Below, piece by piece: positions 3,916 to 28,327 of a stretch of DNA of 28,327 nucleotides (position 1 is the stretch's first letter; each line of letters opens with the position of its first letter). A program made the position numbers and the translations under genes. Source of the stretch: a virus. A model generated the notes under the pieces. The model saw nothing but the letters and a program-made list of their open reading frames with translations, did not search any database and was not told the DNA's origin. The stretch is taken from IMG/VR virus record IMGVR_UViG_3300020558_000025, positions 1 to 28,327 of that record. The stretch is one strand, 5' to 3'.

Positions 3916-5295
3916 TTAGGGACTTTTTTGTTGTTCACGTTGTTTTCTTTTCTCCAACAGTTCTTTGACCCTATCTCTTTTTCTTTCTTCTTGTTGCTCT
4001 TCAAATCCTAGGAATGTGATTGATGATTCAGTGTCGATTTCAAGTAATTCATTATTGAATTTACAGTTCTCGAAAACAACCCCGTCTTTACCAAGACGAG
4101 ATTTAGTGATGGCTATTGTTGCAAGGTTCATCTCTTTTTGTTGTAATGTCTTTGCCACAGTAATAATAACGTGGCCTACTTGTGCTTTCTTGATTGAACC
4201 ACCCATTTGGTCTGTTGTAACAACTTCAGATGAAATTGAACTTCTATTTCCTTGGGTTGCAGTCCATCCCACAAGATTTAATTCGTGACACATGGCTTCG
4301 AATGCCCTCATAATTGAACCTTCGGCCTTCCATTCGTCTTTAGCACTTTGTTCAGGTAGAACACAATCTATGTAATCTAATAGAATCAAATCAATTTTAT
4401 TTCCCTCAGCAATCATTTTTCTCACCTGATTTTTGATATGATTCATAGTTACAGTGTCTGAAGCCAATTTCTTGAGAATCAATTTGTTCTTCATTGTATC
4501 TTGAATCTCTGAGATTTTATCCATTACTTTTTCTCTGTGTTCGGCTAATTTGTCAGGTTCAACGCCTGTCCAAATGGTGAAGTGTTTTCTCTGAATAATT
4601 TTTGGATTGTCTTCAAAAAAGATTTGTAAAACGTTATAACCGTGATTAAATGCGGTATTGGCTATTTTAGTGAGGATTGTGGTCTTACCAACACCAGTGG
4701 GTGCAAGTATGACCCCAATCTCACCTTTGGCTAATCCACCCTTTAACAATCTATCAATACCTGTTATTCCCATAGGAATTGGATGTCTGTAATCATCTTC
4801 CAAAACAGTATCCAAACCTGAGAAAATATCTGTAACATTCTTTTCAACTTCTCCAACTTGAAGAGCTTCTCTTACTAAACCCTCAACTTTGTCATAAGAC
4901 TCAAAGTCACCTTCAGTGATGATTTTCTGAGCTCTGTCCATAGCCTTTTTCAACTCTTGTTGTTTACAGAATTTCAAAGCTTTCTCTTGAACAAACTGAG
5001 CCCCTTCAACTGGTGCATCTTTGATTTGTTTTAAAGTATCCAAAACAATTTTGACAACCAATTCTTGGGTGACTTCAGCCCTTACAATCTGTTCAATTGT
5101 TTCAAAGTTAGGAGAAGCTTCATACTTTGAATGATATTCTTTAATCATCTGAATGATGATTTTAAAATACTTGTTGTCAAAATACGATGGCTCAAGAACG
5201 TCGACAATTGAGGATGCAAAGTCTTTATCCTCTATTAGTTGGTTGATAAGTTGTATTTGAAACGTGTTACCTAAGTAGTCAAAGTTTTTGTTCAT
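3916..5295 (-). CDS. 41: Replicative DNA helicase, DnaB/T4 gp41-like
   Basis: The protein is a hexameric-type replicative helicase of the RecA-fold DnaB superfamily, which unwinds DNA ahead of the phage polymerase. An N-terminal helical domain (about 1-150) precedes an ATPase domain with Walker A APTGVGKTT (about residues 198-206), the helicase-loader-type FFEDNP segment (about 227-232, in the position of the catalytic Glu), Walker B LILLDYID (about 304-311) and a WTATQGNRSS motif that senses nucleotide and DNA. A lysine/arginine-rich tail ends the protein. Length (459 residues) is close to T4 gp41. I place the start at ATG 5295; an in-frame TTG two codons upstream (5301) is possible. It follows the 153-residue gene by 33 bases. 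Confidence 0.9.
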   Translation of the reverse strand: MNKNFDYLGNTFQIQLINQLIEDKDFASSIVDVLEPSYFDNKYFKIIIQMIKEYHSKYEASPNFETIEQIVRAEVTQELVVKIVLDTLKQIKDAPVEGAQFVQEKALKFCKQQELKKAMDRAQKIITEGDFESYDKVEGLVREALQVGEVEKNVTDIFSGLDTVLEDDYRHPIPMGITGIDRLLKGGLAKGEIGVILAPTGVGKTTILTKIANTAFNHGYNVLQIFFEDNPKIIQRKHFTIWTGVEPDKLAEHREKVMDKISEIQDTMKNKLILKKLASDTVTMNHIKNQVRKMIAEGNKIDLILLDYIDCVLPEQSAKDEWKAEGSIMRAFEAMCHELNLVGWTATQGNRSSISSEVVTTDQMGGSIKKAQVGHVIITVAKTLQQKEMNLATIAITKSRLGKDGVVFENCKFNNELLEIDTESSITFLGFEEQQEERKRDRVKELLEKRKQREQQKSP

Positions 5296-5328
5296 AGCCA
5301 AAGAAAATATCCCCTCTTATTTTAAATA

Positions 5329-5790
5329 TCAATCTCTCAAATCAATTCCGCAATATTCGTAAGATAATTCGGAATTTGAAAAAATGTCAGTCAGTTCTTT
5401 AAGAACATCCTTCAAATATGGTCTTACGTCAACGGTGTAACGAACTTTGGGTGGAAACTTTTTTCCATCGAAAATTCTCTGACAAATTGTCTGGTCTCCT
5501 ACTTTCACAGAAAGATAGAAGTTTTCAGGACCCTCGGTAAAAGACGTATCCATAATCTTGGGGTCATGAATGATTGCCTCCATGTTATCCATCATATAGA
5601 TAACTGTTTTCATTTTGAGGTAATACTGTAGCTCCTCGGATAAGGATTTGATGAAATGATAAAACTCGGTAGAGTTTTTTGCTTCAGGGTTGAAACCTTT
5701 GACGTTGAAGAATCTTTGGACGACGATGTTGTCGTTCAGGGTCAACAAAAATTCCATCTTGATGCTGTCGTGTTCTTTCATGTTTTTCAT
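5329..5790 (-). CDS. Hypothetical protein in replication cassette
   Basis: I do not recognise this 153-residue protein (MKNMKEHDSIKMEFLLTLND...). It is a mixed alpha/beta sequence with alternating hydrophobics (LLTLNDNIVVQRFF, FYLSVKVGDQTICQRIFDGK), which suggests two similar small beta-rich halves. Each half ends in a QRFF/QRIF segment followed by a phi-x-x-K-x-F stretch, so an internal duplication is possible. There is no signal peptide or membrane segment. An upstream in-frame ATG at 5853 exists, but ATG at 5790 is preferred because it forms a 4-base ATGA overlap with the exonuclease stop (5787-5789). Its position between RNase H and helicase suggests a replication-linked role; this is context only. 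Confidence 0.7.
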   Translation of the reverse strand: MKNMKEHDSIKMEFLLTLNDNIVVQRFFNVKGFNPEAKNSTEFYHFIKSLSEELQYYLKMKTVIYMMDNMEAIIHDPKIMDTSFTEGPENFYLSVKVGDQTICQRIFDGKKFPPKVRYTVDVRPYLKDVLKELTDIFSNSELSYEYCGIDLRD

Positions 5791-6785
5791 TTTTTTGTGT
5801 TTCGTTTTTCTTTTCTTGTTAGTTTCATAAATGGTTTTAGGAAGTTTACCCACGCTTCGTCGTTTTTAGGTAGGTATTTAAATAGGCCGTCTTCCATCAT
5901 CAGCCTCATAAGGTTTTTATAACCTCGGTCAGTAGGGTCCATGGTATCGGTATGAATCTGTTCAACAAGTTGTTTACCTTCTTGGTTTATGAGGGGATTA
6001 TGAAGGTCAACAATCATTTGATTCACAACGTAAAACTCTTCTCCAAGTATACCACTTTTGGTCCGTCCTGTCAAAATATTTTCTAAAGATTTTGGTAATT
6101 TCTTTTGTTGGATATTTCGTGCATAATCCAATATTTCTTGGATAGTGCATGGTTTTTCAAGCATAAACGGAAAAAGTTTAACCAAAGTTTTTTCTCCCAA
6201 ACCTTCAATACCGTCAATATTGTCTGATTTGTCTCCTGTGAATATTTTTGTAACAGTGATGTTATAATGTGGGATGTCAACCTTGTTGATTGTTATCTTA
6301 TCTCCATTCTTAAAATACCTCTTTGCCACAGGTGAATAGATAGTCACTCTTTGACTTATAAGTTGGGTGAGGTCTTTGTCTGCTGAGAAGATTATAATGT
6401 CTTCATCGGTCGCAATTTGACAATAGTAAGCTATTAGGTCATCGGCTTCATTATCTTTCATTTCAACCTGTCGGACGAAAACCTCCTCCAAATACATCTT
6501 TACTCTAGCCTTTTGTTGTAGGTAAGATTCGTATTTGTACTCATTCATATCTTGGCGACGGTTTCCTTTATATTGAGGATACAAACCTTTCCTTACGGAT
6601 GAGTTCGAATCTCCGTCCCAAAATACTATAACTTTGTCATGATTGTGTTCTTCAAGAAATTTCCGGATAGTGTTGATGAAATGGTATACCCCTCCTATGT
6701 GAGAACCATCGTTATAAAGTTCTTTGACTCCGTGAAAACCAATCTTGAAAAGGTTGTCACCATCTACTAATAAAGTCTTAGGCAC
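5787..6785 (-). CDS. rnh: 5'-3' exonuclease / RNase H, FEN-like (T4 Rnh family)
   Basis: The 332-residue protein belongs to the flap-endonuclease/5'-3' exonuclease family, which in T4 removes RNA primers from lagging-strand fragments. Acidic metal-binding residues are all present: LLVDGDN (Asp8, Asp10), VFWDGDS (Asp57, Asp59), DNEADD (Glu113, Asp115, Asp116), SADKD (Asp136, Asp138) and TGDKSDN (Asp185, Asp188). A helix-hairpin-helix GIEGLGEKT (about 192-200) follows, and YKGNRR (72-77) is the conserved basic arch residue patch. The start is GTG at 6785, since an in-frame TAA lies four codons upstream and the first metal ligand is residue 8. The gene starts 9 bases after the DUF6165 stop and overlaps the next gene by 4 bases. 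Confidence 0.92.
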   Translation of the reverse strand: MPKTLLVDGDNLFKIGFHGVKELYNDGSHIGGVYHFINTIRKFLEEHNHDKVIVFWDGDSNSSVRKGLYPQYKGNRRQDMNEYKYESYLQQKARVKMYLEEVFVRQVEMKDNEADDLIAYYCQIATDEDIIIFSADKDLTQLISQRVTIYSPVAKRYFKNGDKITINKVDIPHYNITVTKIFTGDKSDNIDGIEGLGEKTLVKLFPFMLEKPCTIQEILDYARNIQQKKLPKSLENILTGRTKSGILGEEFYVVNQMIVDLHNPLINQEGKQLVEQIHTDTMDPTDRGYKNLMRLMMEDGLFKYLPKNDEAWVNFLKPFMKLTRKEKRNTKK

Positions 6786-22497: not shown

Positions 22498-24483
22498 TTA
22501 TGTTGTTACCGAATATTGCCCCTTCTTTGCAATTTTACCAGCTCTCAATAGGGCACCCTCAGTAACTTCCAAAAGTGCTTGTTTAACAGTTTCAGGAGAT
22601 TGTAGAATGTATTCAGTAAAAGCAGGATACGATGGCATACTACTAAAATCTGGCGGAAGTTTTACTGTAAGTTCTGCAGGTATCGGAGTTTTTTCATCAA
22701 AAGAAACTTTCATGCTCATTCCTGTTGAAGTTGACTTCAACCCAGATTCATTTATAGCATTTAATATCGGTAAGAAAGATTTAGTTGAGGCTGCGTTTAC
22801 AACAAATTCACCATTCGAAAGTTTGGCATCTATGGAATCGCTTGTTGATGTACCGGGACCTGTCACCAATCCTCCACTTGCTCTTCTCAATGGTCTTCTT
22901 CCCGTAGGTTCACCAAACATGTCAAAACCCGTACTTGTGAGAATTGATTTCATCATATCACCCATATCTCCTTGTTGTCTTTGTCTTTCAATCTCATAAT
23001 TCTTGAAAGCATCTGGAAGTCTTTGAGTTAAATTCATTAACTCCTTAAATAATAGGTCCTCTTGCTTTTTTCGGTCCGCATCGGGTAACTTTTGAGCCTC
23101 TTTGAGTTTTTCTCTAATTTCTTCCGCATCTCTAAAATAACCTGATTTTCTCACTGCTTTAGCAAAACCCTCAGCAGATTTTCTTGTCATGTTCAAAGCA
23201 TCTTCCATATTTCTCAAGAAACCTGGTTGTGTATAAATTGAAGTTTTGACTAATTCTTTAATGAATTTAATTTCCGCATATGTTTTTTCAGCGGTGTTTA
23301 ATTGGCTTTCTTGTATCTGTTGTACAGTCTTTGGTGCCTTTTCTTGTTGTTCTATAATTCTTTTGAAATCTTGTTCTTGTAAATCAACTAATTTTCTTTG
23401 ATACTCATTACCCCTTTCGTCTTTTATAGAAACCTCATATTCACCTTCTTTTCCCATACTTGCAACGTTAGCAATCATTTTTTTGTCTTCTTCACTAACA
23501 TTGAAAGATAATCCTGTGGTAGAAATCCTTTTCAATTTATCATCCATCTCCGCAGCAGCCAATGCAGTTCTTTTCAAGTTCTCAGCACTCAAGTCGGTTT
23601 CTGCTGCCAAAGCATTCATTGTTAGAATTCCTTGTGGACTGACTCTGAAACTTTTAGTCTTTTCATCAAAATAGGTGAAAGACTTAGCCATATTGATTAT
23701 ACTATCCTGTAATCCTGATGGGTCATTTATAGATTGGTTCATCAGTTGGAACGGGTCTGTCAAATTTCCTACTGAAACACCTAATCTTTGAAAAGCTGAT
23801 GCCATTCTTACTGCATCTTCAGGGTTGAGAACTTTGTCGGCTAAAGTGAAAACTTCTTTCATATCAAACCTCAATCTCGATGCTTGTGCAGCCATTTTAG
23901 TAAACCCTAAAACTCCCTCACTGAAATTAAATCTTGCCAATTTATCTGTGTTATTCAATACATCTGAGACGACAACTTTAGCGTTGAGTCCTATTCTTTG
24001 AACATAAACAATAGATTCTTCTAGTTTTTTGGCAATATTTTCATAAGAATACCCTGCCTCGGTAAATTCATCGACAATTTTCGATGTTACTGTACCCAAA
24101 ATTTTACTTGTTGCATATAGTTCCTCAACTTGCTCTTTTTGTGCAACTAAATTTCTTCGAGTTCCCGCAGCTATTCCTTGTATTGCTCCTCCAACTGCTT
24201 CAATACTTCCTCCTAATTTTACGATACCTGGAGTCGCTTCAGAAACAGACCTAGCCATTTCTTGTATTCTCATTCTTGAAGCAACAAAGCTCGTATTCAG
24301 AGCCTCGGCAACTTCAGCTACGTTTGTGAGTTCTGTAGTTATTGTGGATGCAAAACCTCCTGGAGTTCTTAGTGCCTCTACATCGGTTCTAATTTTTTTA
24401 AGAACCTCAGAATATCTATTAGCAATTTGTAAATCTTCTGAGGTTATCGGCGCTTTCTCCGCCCCACTTTGCTGGAAAAACAT
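22498..24483 (-). CDS. Tail tape measure protein
   Basis: The 661-residue protein is predicted to set tail length and help eject DNA. It is largely alpha-helical with long heptad-like stretches. Near the C-terminus (residues about 535-570) it has ASGGLVTGPGTSTSDSIDAKLSNGEFVVNA, a motif widely shared by tape measure proteins (GGxVxGPGTxTSDSIxAxLSxGEFVVNA). Size is near T4 gp29 (590 residues). The gene directly follows the gp26-like gene and a small overlapping ORF, the place where tail assembly chaperones are encoded in many phages. Start is ATG 24483; the 35-base leader has a CTATTTATAA box and no Shine-Dalgarno sequence. It is probably the functional counterpart of gp29. Confidence 0.88.
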   Translation of the reverse strand: MFFQQSGAEKAPITSEDLQIANRYSEVLKKIRTDVEALRTPGGFASTITTELTNVAEVAEALNTSFVASRMRIQEMARSVSEATPGIVKLGGSIEAVGGAIQGIAAGTRRNLVAQKEQVEELYATSKILGTVTSKIVDEFTEAGYSYENIAKKLEESIVYVQRIGLNAKVVVSDVLNNTDKLARFNFSEGVLGFTKMAAQASRLRFDMKEVFTLADKVLNPEDAVRMASAFQRLGVSVGNLTDPFQLMNQSINDPSGLQDSIINMAKSFTYFDEKTKSFRVSPQGILTMNALAAETDLSAENLKRTALAAAEMDDKLKRISTTGLSFNVSEEDKKMIANVASMGKEGEYEVSIKDERGNEYQRKLVDLQEQDFKRIIEQQEKAPKTVQQIQESQLNTAEKTYAEIKFIKELVKTSIYTQPGFLRNMEDALNMTRKSAEGFAKAVRKSGYFRDAEEIREKLKEAQKLPDADRKKQEDLLFKELMNLTQRLPDAFKNYEIERQRQQGDMGDMMKSILTSTGFDMFGEPTGRRPLRRASGGLVTGPGTSTSDSIDAKLSNGEFVVNAASTKSFLPILNAINESGLKSTSTGMSMKVSFDEKTPIPAELTVKLPPDFSSMPSYPAFTEYILQSPETVKQALLEVTEGALLRAGKIAKKGQYSVTT

Positions 24484-24518: not shown

Positions 24519-24683
24519 TTACTCCTTTTGATGAGTCTCAATCCATTTATCTAAAAGATATTTTCTTACGAAAATGGGCATAATCATAAAATCAGAATAA
24601 CTTATATGAAGCAACGTAGATAAGTAATATAATTCGTCTAATTGTCCTTTTCTATACTCAGAAGAAAGGGCGAAAAAATTCAA
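24519..24683 (-). CDS. Small overlapping ORF upstream of tape measure (non-ATG start or frameshift product)
   Basis: This frame overlaps the last 26 bases of the gp26-like gene and has no ATG near its beginning. From TTG 24683 it gives 54 residues: MNFFALSSEYRKGQLDELYY..., ending MPIFVRKYLLDKWIETHQKE. TTG 24689 or 24695 would add 2 or 4 residues; the in-frame TAA is at 24701. The sequence has good protein character (amphipathic helix DELYYLSTLLHISYSDFMIMP followed by VRKYLLDKWIE). It resembles small proteins I recall from T4-like phages between gp26 and the tape measure gene, with a late MP-x-x-x-R-x-Y-x-x-x-K pattern. Alternatively it is a +1 or -2 frameshift extension of the upstream gene, at the T6 run in GAATTTTTTCGC. 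It may be a tail assembly chaperone. Confidence 0.65.
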   Translation of the reverse strand: MNFFALSSEYRKGQLDELYYLSTLLHISYSDFMIMPIFVRKYLLDKWIETHQKE

Positions 24684-25404
24684 CCCCAAAACCAACGTTT
24701 ACTGTTAGTCTTTCTCCTGATGGGGCTATAATTTGTTTGGTTAAATCCAATCTTGGTTCAGCATCTTGTAAGAACTTCCTAATATATTTTGAGTCCGCGA
24801 TTGGCATTGACTCTACGAATTTAGCTATTTCAGCTTTATCAGAATTTCCATTTATCTCCAAAATTTGGTTTTGTAAAGTAAGAGTGATTTTAGGTGCTGG
24901 TCTTGTTGGGGGGTAACTATCGAAAATATTTTGGAGATTTGTTTGTTCTCCATAATTCATCAATTTTAGTTTCGCCTGTGCTTTGGAAACAGGTAGAGTT
25001 GTAGTAAAACTACCGTCTTCATTTGGTTCGTGAAGTGGTTTTTTTATATTCAACTCTTCCAACGAAATATTAGCTTCGAATTGTTTTTTTGTTTGTGGGT
25101 CAATTAAATTCATCATTATGTTAGGTCCAAATGATGTGTTCCTCAAAAAAATAAGAATTGCTTCAACATCCCCTTCCAATAAATCATCTATTTTAATATC
25201 AGGTTCGTAAATTTTATTTCTCAATAAAGTTCCAGTAATATCGCTTGTATTACTCATCAAAATGTTTTCATCCGACGCTGTCAAATACCCAACTTTAACT
25301 GATTTTTTTTTGTTTTTATAAAACTTACCTCCTGATGGAAGTATTACAACATCGTGAGGTAATGAAAAATTTTGTTGTCCATAGTCTCTACTTTGGTCTT
25401 GCAT
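24658..25404 (-). CDS. 26: Baseplate hub assembly protein, T4 gp26-like
   Basis: The 248-residue protein begins with a short tail, then LPHDVVILPSGGKFYKNKKKSVKVGYLTASDENIL, and later IDDLLEGDVEAILIFLRNTSFGPNIMMNLIDPQTKKQFEANISLEEL. The LPSxGKxY opening and the D-x-L-x-x-x-D-x-x-x-x-L-x-x-x-R-x-x-S-x-G stretch are typical of the T4 gp26 base plate protein family. The C-terminus (KIVGF-like, ending VGFGVEFFRPFF) overlaps the small ORF. It lies between tube and tape measure genes, consistent with a role in hub or tail-core assembly. ATG 25404 directly follows the T-run of the tube terminator, so it is probably made at a much lower level than the tube protein. Confidence 0.8.
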   Translation of the reverse strand: MQDQSRDYGQQNFSLPHDVVILPSGGKFYKNKKKSVKVGYLTASDENILMSNTSDITGTLLRNKIYEPDIKIDDLLEGDVEAILIFLRNTSFGPNIMMNLIDPQTKKQFEANISLEELNIKKPLHEPNEDGSFTTTLPVSKAQAKLKLMNYGEQTNLQNIFDSYPPTRPAPKITLTLQNQILEINGNSDKAEIAKFVESMPIADSKYIRKFLQDAEPRLDLTKQIIAPSGERLTVNVGFGVEFFRPFF

Positions 25405-25476: not shown

Positions 25477-25965
25477 TTAGTAAACCAACACACAACGGTC
25501 TGGACGCAATCCACATGTGATATCAGCTAAAGCATCATTGCTATACGCTAATGAACCAAAGTTAGCACTTGTCAGGAAGGTTCCGTATAAAATCCATTTT
25601 TCTACGACTACTCCTGTTGGGTCCAACATCTCGAGGTCAACATCTTTTTTGTAACCCGCAGCATAACCCATACGACCTGTTACTGATTCAGCGTGTAAAC
25701 GAACCCACTCCATCAATGCTTGAGCCGCAGACGGACCAATCGGGTCTCTGAATTTTACCTGAATTTCATCCCAATTAAATCTACCTGCAACAAATGTTGA
25801 AGTATTCAAGAATTGAATTTCGGTTGAATTTATTTTAATTGAGGGTCTTGAAGCAGATTCAACAAACCATTCATTGATACCCATGCTAGAAGGAAACCTT
25901 AAAATGAATCGATTCTGCCGTTTCGGTTCGTAGGGTAAGGGCATCTTCATCAGTAAATCAGCCAT
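25477..25965 (-). CDS. 19: Tail tube protein, T4 gp19-like
   Basis: The 162-residue protein matches the length and pattern of T4 gp19: an N-terminal PYEPKRQNRFILRFPSSMGINEWFVESASRPSI, then FNWDEIQVKFRDPIGPSAAQALMEWVRLHAESVTGRMGYAAGYKKDVDLEMLDPTGVVVEKWILYGTF and a DITCGLRPDRCVL end. The NRFxxxFP...VxSAxRP and DPTGVVVExWxLxGxF features are characteristic of contractile-tail tube proteins. Hexameric rings of it form the inner tube beneath the sheath. Start is ATG 25965 after an A/T-rich 92-base leader without Shine-Dalgarno but with CTATATTTAT (26000-26009). A strong terminator follows, fitting high-level expression. Confidence 0.93.
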   Translation of the reverse strand: MADLLMKMPLPYEPKRQNRFILRFPSSMGINEWFVESASRPSIKINSTEIQFLNTSTFVAGRFNWDEIQVKFRDPIGPSAAQALMEWVRLHAESVTGRMGYAAGYKKDVDLEMLDPTGVVVEKWILYGTFLTSANFGSLAYSNDALADITCGLRPDRCVLVY

Positions 25966-26927: not shown

Positions 26928-28327
26928 TTATATATTTTCAAACGAAGCACCTGTTGGTGTGATAAAGAACTCAATATCTATGAACTCCAAAGCCTTCGTT
27001 GGTTTAAGGTAAATTTTACCTGTGAGAGTGTTTCTGTCCAAGTCTTCAGGTGAAGAAGAAACAGTAACACGGAAGTCATATAAACCTCTATCTCTTCTGA
27101 TTGAGTCAAGTATAGGGTTTACACTATCCAAGAATTGTTGTCTTACGATTTGGTCGTTTTGTTCAAATAACAATCTCACTGCTACAGCTGAAATCAACTT
27201 ACGAGCTTGTAACAACAATCTTCTTACATTCAATCTGTTCAAAGCTGTGTCAGCAACTTGGAGGGTTTTATTACCCCAAATTACAGTTCCTACGTCAGCG
27301 AATGTCGCAATTGGGTTGATTCTACCTTGATAAAGTGTATCTCTATCTTGTTGAGTAAGTTTTACTCTCGCCTTGATTGAGTTTACTAAACCTCTTGTGT
27401 AACCAGCCGATGCAAACCATGGGAAAGAAATGTTATCTGTAAGAGCTAAGTTTCTACATACTTCACCTGTTGGTGGGATATAGATTTGTGTATTATTCAC
27501 AGTATCTCTTACTAAAATCCATGGATAATAAGTTGCGGTGTAGTTAGAATCAATACCTGTATTATCAAGATTGTCTACCGCTGTTTGTGGGTAAATGATT
27601 TGATTTTGGTCTGTTGAATCTGGTAGTAACATGTTATAGTCAGGGGTAGTGACAATGTAAATTGAGTCAGCTCTTTGGAACTGAATCATATCTATTGCTG
27701 CTTCTACAAGAGTTTGGTTATAAACGTAATCGATACTTGCAGTTGCAAAAACATTTATATTTGTAGATTCTGGATTTGCAAAAGTAAGAATACCAAGAAG
27801 ATATGCGTAATAGTCTGTATTTGCAAATGACTGACTGTCAGCATCAACGGTGATATTTTTGAAAGTACCGAAACCAGTTGCTGTTGGATATCTTGCCGAA
27901 GTACAAGCTCCTGCCAAGTAACCAGTACCACCTAAAGCGAATCTATCTTCATTAGTCCTTCTTTCTTCATAGATGTCCCAACCGTCAAAACCACCCGCCA
28001 TACAAAGTGTGAACTTTCTAGAGTAAATAAAATAATATGGATTATCCTGACTACTTGGATTAGAAGTGAAATCAGCAACACCACATTCGAATGCTGTTTG
28101 ACCACTTGTTGTGAACTCATTACCAATAGTCACCACCGTAGCACCTGAGTCCAAGTGGAAACCTTTAGTTAAACCGTTCCAAGGTGCCGATTCAGTTGCG
28201 GTACAAAAACCAACAACAGGATTCTTTTGACCTAAGTATTGCAAGAACGCATCCTCAATAGTAAATAAGTAAGAGGATGACATACCGAGATAAGTTCTAC
28301 GAACAACGTCACCAGGAGAAGTAACCG
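26928..28327 (-). CDS. 18: Tail sheath protein, T4 gp18-like (N-terminus outside window)
   Basis: The frame is open to the right edge, giving 466 residues; the reading continues upstream of the internal Met at 28283 as VTSPGDVVRRTYLGMSSSYLF, so the true start lies outside. The C-terminal part (WFASAGYTRGLVNSIKARVKLTQQDRDTLYQGRINPIATF...VIWGNKTL...LNRLNVRRLLLQARKLI...QFLDSVNPILDSIRRDRGLYDFRV...KIYLKPTKALEFIDIEFFITPTG) is the classic conserved end of contractile tail sheaths, including the WGNKTL and NVRRL segments. It polymerises around the tube and contracts at injection. Its gene ends 5 bases before the terminator stem. Gene order sheath then tube (with an HAD gene between) supports the call. 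Confidence 0.95.
   Translation of the reverse strand, partial: VTSPGDVVRRTYLGMSSSYLFTIEDAFLQYLGQKNPVVGFCTATESAPWNGLTKGFHLDSGATVVTIGNEFTTSGQTAFECGVADFTSNPSSQDNPYYFIYSRKFTLCMAGGFDGWDIYEERRTNEDRFALGGTGYLAGACTSARYPTATGFGTFKNITVDADSQSFANTDYYAYLLGILTFANPESTNINVFATASIDYVYNQTLVEAAIDMIQFQRADSIYIVTTPDYNMLLPDSTDQNQIIYPQTAVDNLDNTGIDSNYTATYYPWILVRDTVNNTQIYIPPTGEVCRNLALTDNISFPWFASAGYTRGLVNSIKARVKLTQQDRDTLYQGRINPIATFADVGTVIWGNKTLQVADTALNRLNVRRLLLQARKLISAVAVRLLFEQNDQIVRQQFLDSVNPILDSIRRDRGLYDFRVTVSSSPEDLDRNTLTGKIYLKPTKALEFIDIEFFITPTGASFENI

Follow-up and report, generated by a model that had tools for sequence, protein, structure and literature searches.

What is encoded by an open reading frame which overlaps the 3' end of a gp26-like gene and closes immediately ahead of a tape-measure-like gene, and how is it read? 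The question is raised by one locus of the window, that is, the whole stretch of 28,327 nt analysed here (IMG/VR virus record IMGVR_UViG_3300020558_000025), where an initial annotation had proposed two options, a small hidden ORF and a product of frameshifting. A conserved G-T frameshift of long-tailed phages was reportedly described by Xu, Hendrix and Duda in 2004. The G-T frameshift before the tape measure gene is considered to be widely conserved 'except T4', and -1, -2 and +1 versions have been described (2016 review, PMC5009743). The answer proposed in this work, to which a probability of about 0.9 is given, is that the hidden frame is read by a +1 slip of the ribosome at the end of the chaperone gene, which would yield a long form of the chaperone, G-T. 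The features of the locus are collected in Table 1.

Table 1. Features of the G-T locus and its context; positions are those of the window.
Feature	Position	Strand	Remarks
gp26-like gene	24658..25404	minus	248 aa; short tail assembly chaperone ('G') by proposal; stop UGA 24660-24658
+1-frame 'T' domain frame	24519..24698	minus	59 codons + stop; 51 codons if read from the slip site (24674)
Slip site UUU_UUU_CGC	24670..24678	minus	P-site UUU 24675-24673, A-site CGC; proposed +1 re-pairing on UUC, then codon GCC
GGGG	24684..24687	minus	8 nt 5' of P-site UUU; candidate Shine-Dalgarno-like stimulator
AGGAG	24714..24718	minus	Inside Ser-Gly-Glu codons, 38 nt 5' of the slip codon; conserved
Predicted G-T fusion	24522..25404	minus	294 residues, from +1 shift; CGCC translated as one step
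Tape-measure-like gene	22498..24483	minus	661 aa; phrog_25241 tail length tape measure, E 1.7e-15, short stretch only
Tail tube gene (context)	25477..25965	minus	phrog_4542 tail tube, E 1.5e-26
Tail sheath gene (context)	26928..28283	minus	phrog_23 tail sheath, E 7.8e-49

The T frame is open from 24698 to 24522 and is closed by TAA (24521-24519), with the preceding in-frame stop at 24701-24699; the range originally given for it, 24519-24701, includes this upstream stop codon and needed a minor correction. The overlap with the end of the gp26-like gene and the stop just before the tape measure ATG were correctly described, the gap between the T stop and the ATG of the tape-measure-like gene (24483) being 35 nt. 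It was also right that the window offers TTG alone as a start candidate 5' of the slip site, the first one, at 24695, giving 58 aa. The gp26-like gene ends with GAA TTT TTT CGC CCT TTC TTC TGA, where the T6 run already noticed in the overlap occupies 24678-24673, and T is in the +1 (equivalently -2) frame with respect to it. The gene order of the window, namely sheath, one unassigned gene, tube, gp26-like, T and tape-measure-like, resembles the V-G-T-H order of lambda. Elsewhere in the window (3916-6785, minus strand), two GTG-started ORFs, 5787-6785 and 5329-5853, overlap by 67 nt, and the ORF which follows them, 3916-5301, starts at TTG; the starts may be misplaced there, or a further overlap may be present.

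As regards the identity of the proteins, the gp26-like protein matches PF12322 T4_baseplate (Pfam, E 1.2e-10, 41.9 bits versus a cut-off of 24.5) and phrog_150 'baseplate hub' (PHROG, E 5e-14). Its AF2 model (pLDDT 86) was matched by Foldseek in BFVD to the SP-15 baseplate hub (TM 0.83) and to T4-like baseplate hub proteins; a T4-type gp51 was folded as well, and a PDB fold search gave no match. The profile score above the curated cut-off and the fold match in BFVD place the protein in the T4 gp26 family. The database label of this G family is 'baseplate hub', not chaperone, the putative chaperone function being drawn from analogy. The T domain alone matched no family model, Pfam and PHROG scans of the frame being unhelpful and giving no direct hit to phrog_634, the T4 gp51-type T domain, and a tblastn search of the short T product against phages, one of the checks suggested in the initial annotation, returned weak matches only; the relationship emerged through the gp26 neighbour. 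In the alignment of relatives, the domain shows the motif P...R.Y and a length of 49-107 codons. It matches the cyanophage T (E 1.7e-5, prob 79) and, weakly, the C-terminus of T4 gp51 (E 0.002, prob 15). Moreover, the whole window-type G-T aligns end to end with the -1 G-T of cyanophages (hhalign, E 4.6e-11, prob 97).

For the comparison, scans of IMG/VR with three gp26-like proteins provided 240 loci, some of them overlapping, to which isolated phages were added, while a fourth scan, with the SP-15 protein as query, returned SP-15 itself only. A profile of the T domain was used to place the T frame in 241 usable loci, and 98 representatives at 90% nucleotide identity were retained; groups W and A, with 53 representatives in all, are close to the window, and group B, with 45, is close to Flavobacterium phage immuto. 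Relative to the gp26-like gene, the T domain occupies the +1 frame in 239 of the 241 loci from IMG/VR and isolated phages, a constancy of phase which is far beyond chance; the two exceptions are one locus without a match and LR756511 (L086), where T lies in the -1 frame behind U_UUU_UUC. Between relatives, 50-58% of the substitutions in the +1 codons affect third positions and 16-22% second positions, and thus the T frame can be taken as a selected protein. Codon conservation in the +1 frame had been put forward as a check, and its outcome, together with the constant phase, bears out the protein character first ascribed to the hidden frame. A long ORF occurs 200 nt or less after T in 88 of the 98 representatives. 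With regard to annotation, standard ORF callers had been expected to miss the frame, which holds for Listeria phage LIS04 and Streptococcus phage GXN1, where nothing is annotated, but not for Flavobacterium phage immuto and Bacillus phage SP-15, where T is listed as a truncated hypothetical protein of 36-39 aa. In Rhodothermus phage RM378 (L252), the gp26-like gene ends with TCC TTT TTT TGG, has a +1 extension and adjoins a convergent tail tube gene, not the tape measure gene.

The slip motif is nearly fixed, taking the form GAN_UUU_UUU_CGN in the relatives of the window and UUU_YUN_UGG in those of the Flavobacterium phage, UUU being present at the slip site in 98/98 representatives. In groups W and A, both the P-site UUU and the following CGN codon are found in 53/53, whereas CGN represents 7% (W) and 18% (A) of the Arg codons of the same genes; group B has UUU_(CUU/UUU/CUA)_UGG_CCU, with UUU in 45/45. 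It is this contrast in frequency which constitutes the evidence, since the binomial p-values for the slip site ignore the kinship of the phages and are not to be taken literally. The +1 motif UUU_CGN, of the PA-X type, is a feature of the window and its close relatives; in the Flavobacterium-phage group, UUU_YUN_UGG is found in its place. The frequency of CGC in the window is 0.39 per 1000 codons. Because UUU is followed by C or U, tRNA-Phe can re-pair one base forward. The slipping UUU may vary among relatives, since Listeria LIS04 (UUU_UUU_AGU) and the CUA loci of group B fit the first UUU, and L057 and GXN1 the second.

Further signals surround this site. A synonymous scan showed that 6 of 87 conserved degenerate columns are codon-invariant, five of them within the last ten codons (GGG, UUU, CCU, UUC, UUC), and that the P-site codon is invariant, although part of the codon conservation of the overlap is expected from dual coding. 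A Gly codon is GGG in all 53 representatives of groups W and A, versus 10-12% of the Gly codons elsewhere in the gene, and the matching Gly of group B is GGG in 28/45, versus a background of 6%. The +1 frame is not coding 5' of the slip site, with stops located 1-3 codons upstream in some loci. GGGG is invariant in groups W and A. Since its conservation is explained by the protein of neither frame, we infer a role at the mRNA level, and perhaps GGGG pairs with the anti-Shine-Dalgarno sequence as a candidate stimulator of the shift. The codons which make up AGGAG are also nearly invariant in the relatives (GGA 53/53, TCA 47/53, GAA 48/50). Folding of the window revealed no stable RNA structure 3' of the slip site (z +1.1).

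The same frame would be reached, with one extra residue, by a -2 slip on the U6 run in the style of phage Mu, and a slip of either +1 or -2 had been suggested at the outset. On paper, -2 is possible for the window itself, UUU_UUU_C would allow the P-site tRNA of 52 of the 53 close relatives to pair again two bases back, and Mu does use -2 (PMC5009743). However, in locus L057 (UUC_UUU_CGC) and in Streptococcus phage GXN1 (UUC_UUU_CGU) such a slip would place tRNA-Phe on UCU. Furthermore, the codon before the first UUU in the Flavobacterium-phage group is AGC, ACC, ACG, AAC, ACA or AAG, and a -2 slip would there depend on the second codon, a UUU in no more than 19/45. A P-site re-pairing two bases back, as in Mu, is consequently not available in all members, and the -2 part of the suggestion is improbable, while the +1 part is retained.

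Initiation at a TTG inside the gp26-like gene, giving an independent small gene without any frameshift, is more improbable still. The window has TTG codons 5' of the slip site, and separate initiation would be possible in principle, but 14/98 representatives have no ATG, GTG or TTG in the +1 frame between the upstream stop and the slip site, the whole +1 frame of locus L069 is devoid of a start codon, and loci L059 and L068 have a +1-frame stop directly 5' of the slip site. The conserved portion of T, moreover, starts at the slip site, and the variability of the residues which precede it argues against a TTG-started gene, which would also leave the codon-level conservation of UUU_CGN and GGGG unexplained. 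Hence, between the small ORF and the frameshift product originally offered, the comparative data favour the latter. Transcriptional slippage at the U6/A6 run, producing mixed mRNAs, is hardly credible: a homopolymer is present in the overlap, but it is only six bases long, and relatives with no U6 run (AGC TTT CTT, AAC TTT CTA, TTC TTT CGC) keep the same T frame. A decayed remnant, or a sequencing error shifting one gene, would look like the T frame in a single genome and is equally hard to credit for a frame found again, under purifying selection, in isolates and independent assemblies, 241 loci in all.

Four observations thus favour the +1 frameshift: conservation of the slip site, the lack of an upstream start in some relatives, a conserved part of T which starts at that site, and poor -2 re-pairing in two contexts. 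As for the events proposed, the majority of ribosomes would terminate at the UGA of the gp26-like gene, releasing the short form G. A minority would pause at UUU, presumably the second of the slip site, with tRNA-Phe in the P site and the rare CGC waiting in the A site, GGGG possibly stimulating the event; tRNA-Phe would then move one base forward onto UUC and reading would continue in the +1 frame to the end of T, the predicted product being the G-T fusion. The lambda pair gpG/gpGT would suggest, by analogy, that G coats the tape measure while T brings in the tail tube protein. Three traits of a G/GT-type pair are present at the locus, namely its place between the tube and tape measure genes, a conserved overlapping C-terminal extension and a conserved slippery overlap. 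The tail assembly chaperone made by frameshift, which had been anticipated for this position, remains the probable reading, given that comparison of the sequences bears out coding in the +1 frame, conservation of the slip site, the order of the genes and homology with -1 fusions.

The wider gp26 family contains other forms of the same pair. T4-like cyanophages and other gp26 genes carry a T extension in the -1 frame, U_UUU_UUC being found at the gp26 end in 85/89 loci and U_UUU_UUU in one; examples are S-SSM5, P-SSM2, S-H38, PX29, Mendera, ACP17 and phiM12. Several records list this extension as a separate small gp51, although the gp26/gp51 of cyanophages probably represents a -1 frameshift and not a pair of genes. 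In the case of T4, gp51 (249 aa; L254 4480-5229) can be aligned over its full length with the fusion of cyanophages (hhalign, E 8e-18), T4 gp26 aligns with the G part of that fusion (hhalign, E 2.5e-24), and PHROG agrees, T4 gp51 covering positions 13-280 of the 282 of phrog_150; T4 gp26 itself ends with GAG TTC TTT GAG, without a slippery heptamer. These alignments indicate that T4 gp51 is an in-frame fusion of a gp26-like part and T, and a paralogue of gp26. This reading matches the 2022 report on tail chaperone genes of T4-like phages (Vladimirov, Gautam and Davidson, Virology 566:9-15) as cited in PMC10885494 and PMC12846349, two papers which ascribe to it, for some T4-like phages, a short and a long chaperone gene and, for others, poly-T -1 sites.

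In the tree of the G part, a deep and well-supported branch separates the -1 and T4 rows from the +1 rows, the exception being LR756511 (-1, on a long branch), which falls among the latter; the +1 side is large and includes isolates on Flavobacterium, Bacillus, Listeria, Streptococcus and Microcystis. LR756511 (L086) is a phage genome of 595 kb with T in the -1 frame behind GGT TTT TTC TTC, possibly a second switch of direction. In two further phages, Det7 (L263, GAG ATT TTC ATT TAA) and Vibrio D492 (L262, TCA CTT TTC AAG TAA), a T-like domain occupies the -1 frame, but a canonical heptamer is absent. In several of the cyanophage gp26/gp51 loci (L256, L257, L250, L276-L355), the -1 frame lacks an ATG in the vicinity of the slip site. 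A broader proposal, to which we would give even odds, is that the same short and long chaperones are reached from one homologous gene by three routes: -1 at U_UUU_UUC in cyanophages and others, +1 at UUU_UUU_CGN or UUU_YUN_UGG, and gene duplication in T4. In that case, the UUU_CGN signal of the +1 form would be a bacterial one, stimulated by the conserved GGGG 5' of it, and would belong to a type of +1 site as yet undescribed in bacteria.

These results have several implications. They provide a likely function for a frame that lies hidden in environmental phages of a common group, and correct an annotation, since a 'baseplate hub' and a truncated hypothetical protein would become one frameshifted chaperone gene. 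Moreover, homologous genes which would slip -1 or +1 at a near-identical U6C run represent a natural experiment on frameshift direction, and the locus is a candidate in which the UUU_CGN +1 motif of influenza and plant viruses could be tested in bacteria. No description of a +1 form in the gp26 family was found in the literature searched, most subscription papers being outside its coverage. This form appears to be new, frameshifted tail chaperones themselves being known.

Among known systems, lambda gpG/gpGT shares with the window the position between tube and tape measure genes, the short and extended products and the slippery overlap at the 3' end of G; lambda, however, uses -1, whereas the window would use +1 at UUU_CGN, and its G belongs to the T4 gp26 family (PF12322), with a putative chaperone role. 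The T4-like members of that family have homologous G and probably homologous T domains, and fused products which align end to end, but rely on -1 or, in T4 gp51, on a duplicated gene with in-frame fusion. A +1 shift at TTT-CGC has been proposed in the tail assembly chaperone pair of HF1-group haloviruses (PMC7230728). The comparison with HF1 covered its motif, AAG TTT CGC AGA TAG, and the likeness comprises +1, UUU_CGN and two paired frames ahead of the tape measure gene, although these are archaeal viruses, one small group with very different host codon use. The same P-site UUU, A-site CGN and +1 direction occur in influenza A PA-X (UCC_UUU_CGU) and plant amalgaviruses (cited in PMC7230728), where the likeness is one of motif only, since the ribosomes are eukaryotic and the proteins unrelated. 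The tsh gene of Listeria phages PSA, A118 and A500 is, like the window locus, a phage tail gene with a +1 frameshift, at CCC_UGA (PMC5009743), but it encodes the major tail protein and depends on a slow A-site stop codon and a different tRNA. Seen against these systems, the locus would encode a frameshifted tail chaperone of the ordinary kind, here in an unusual and widespread form: +1, at UUU_CGN or UUU_YUN_UGG, in the T4-gp26 family.
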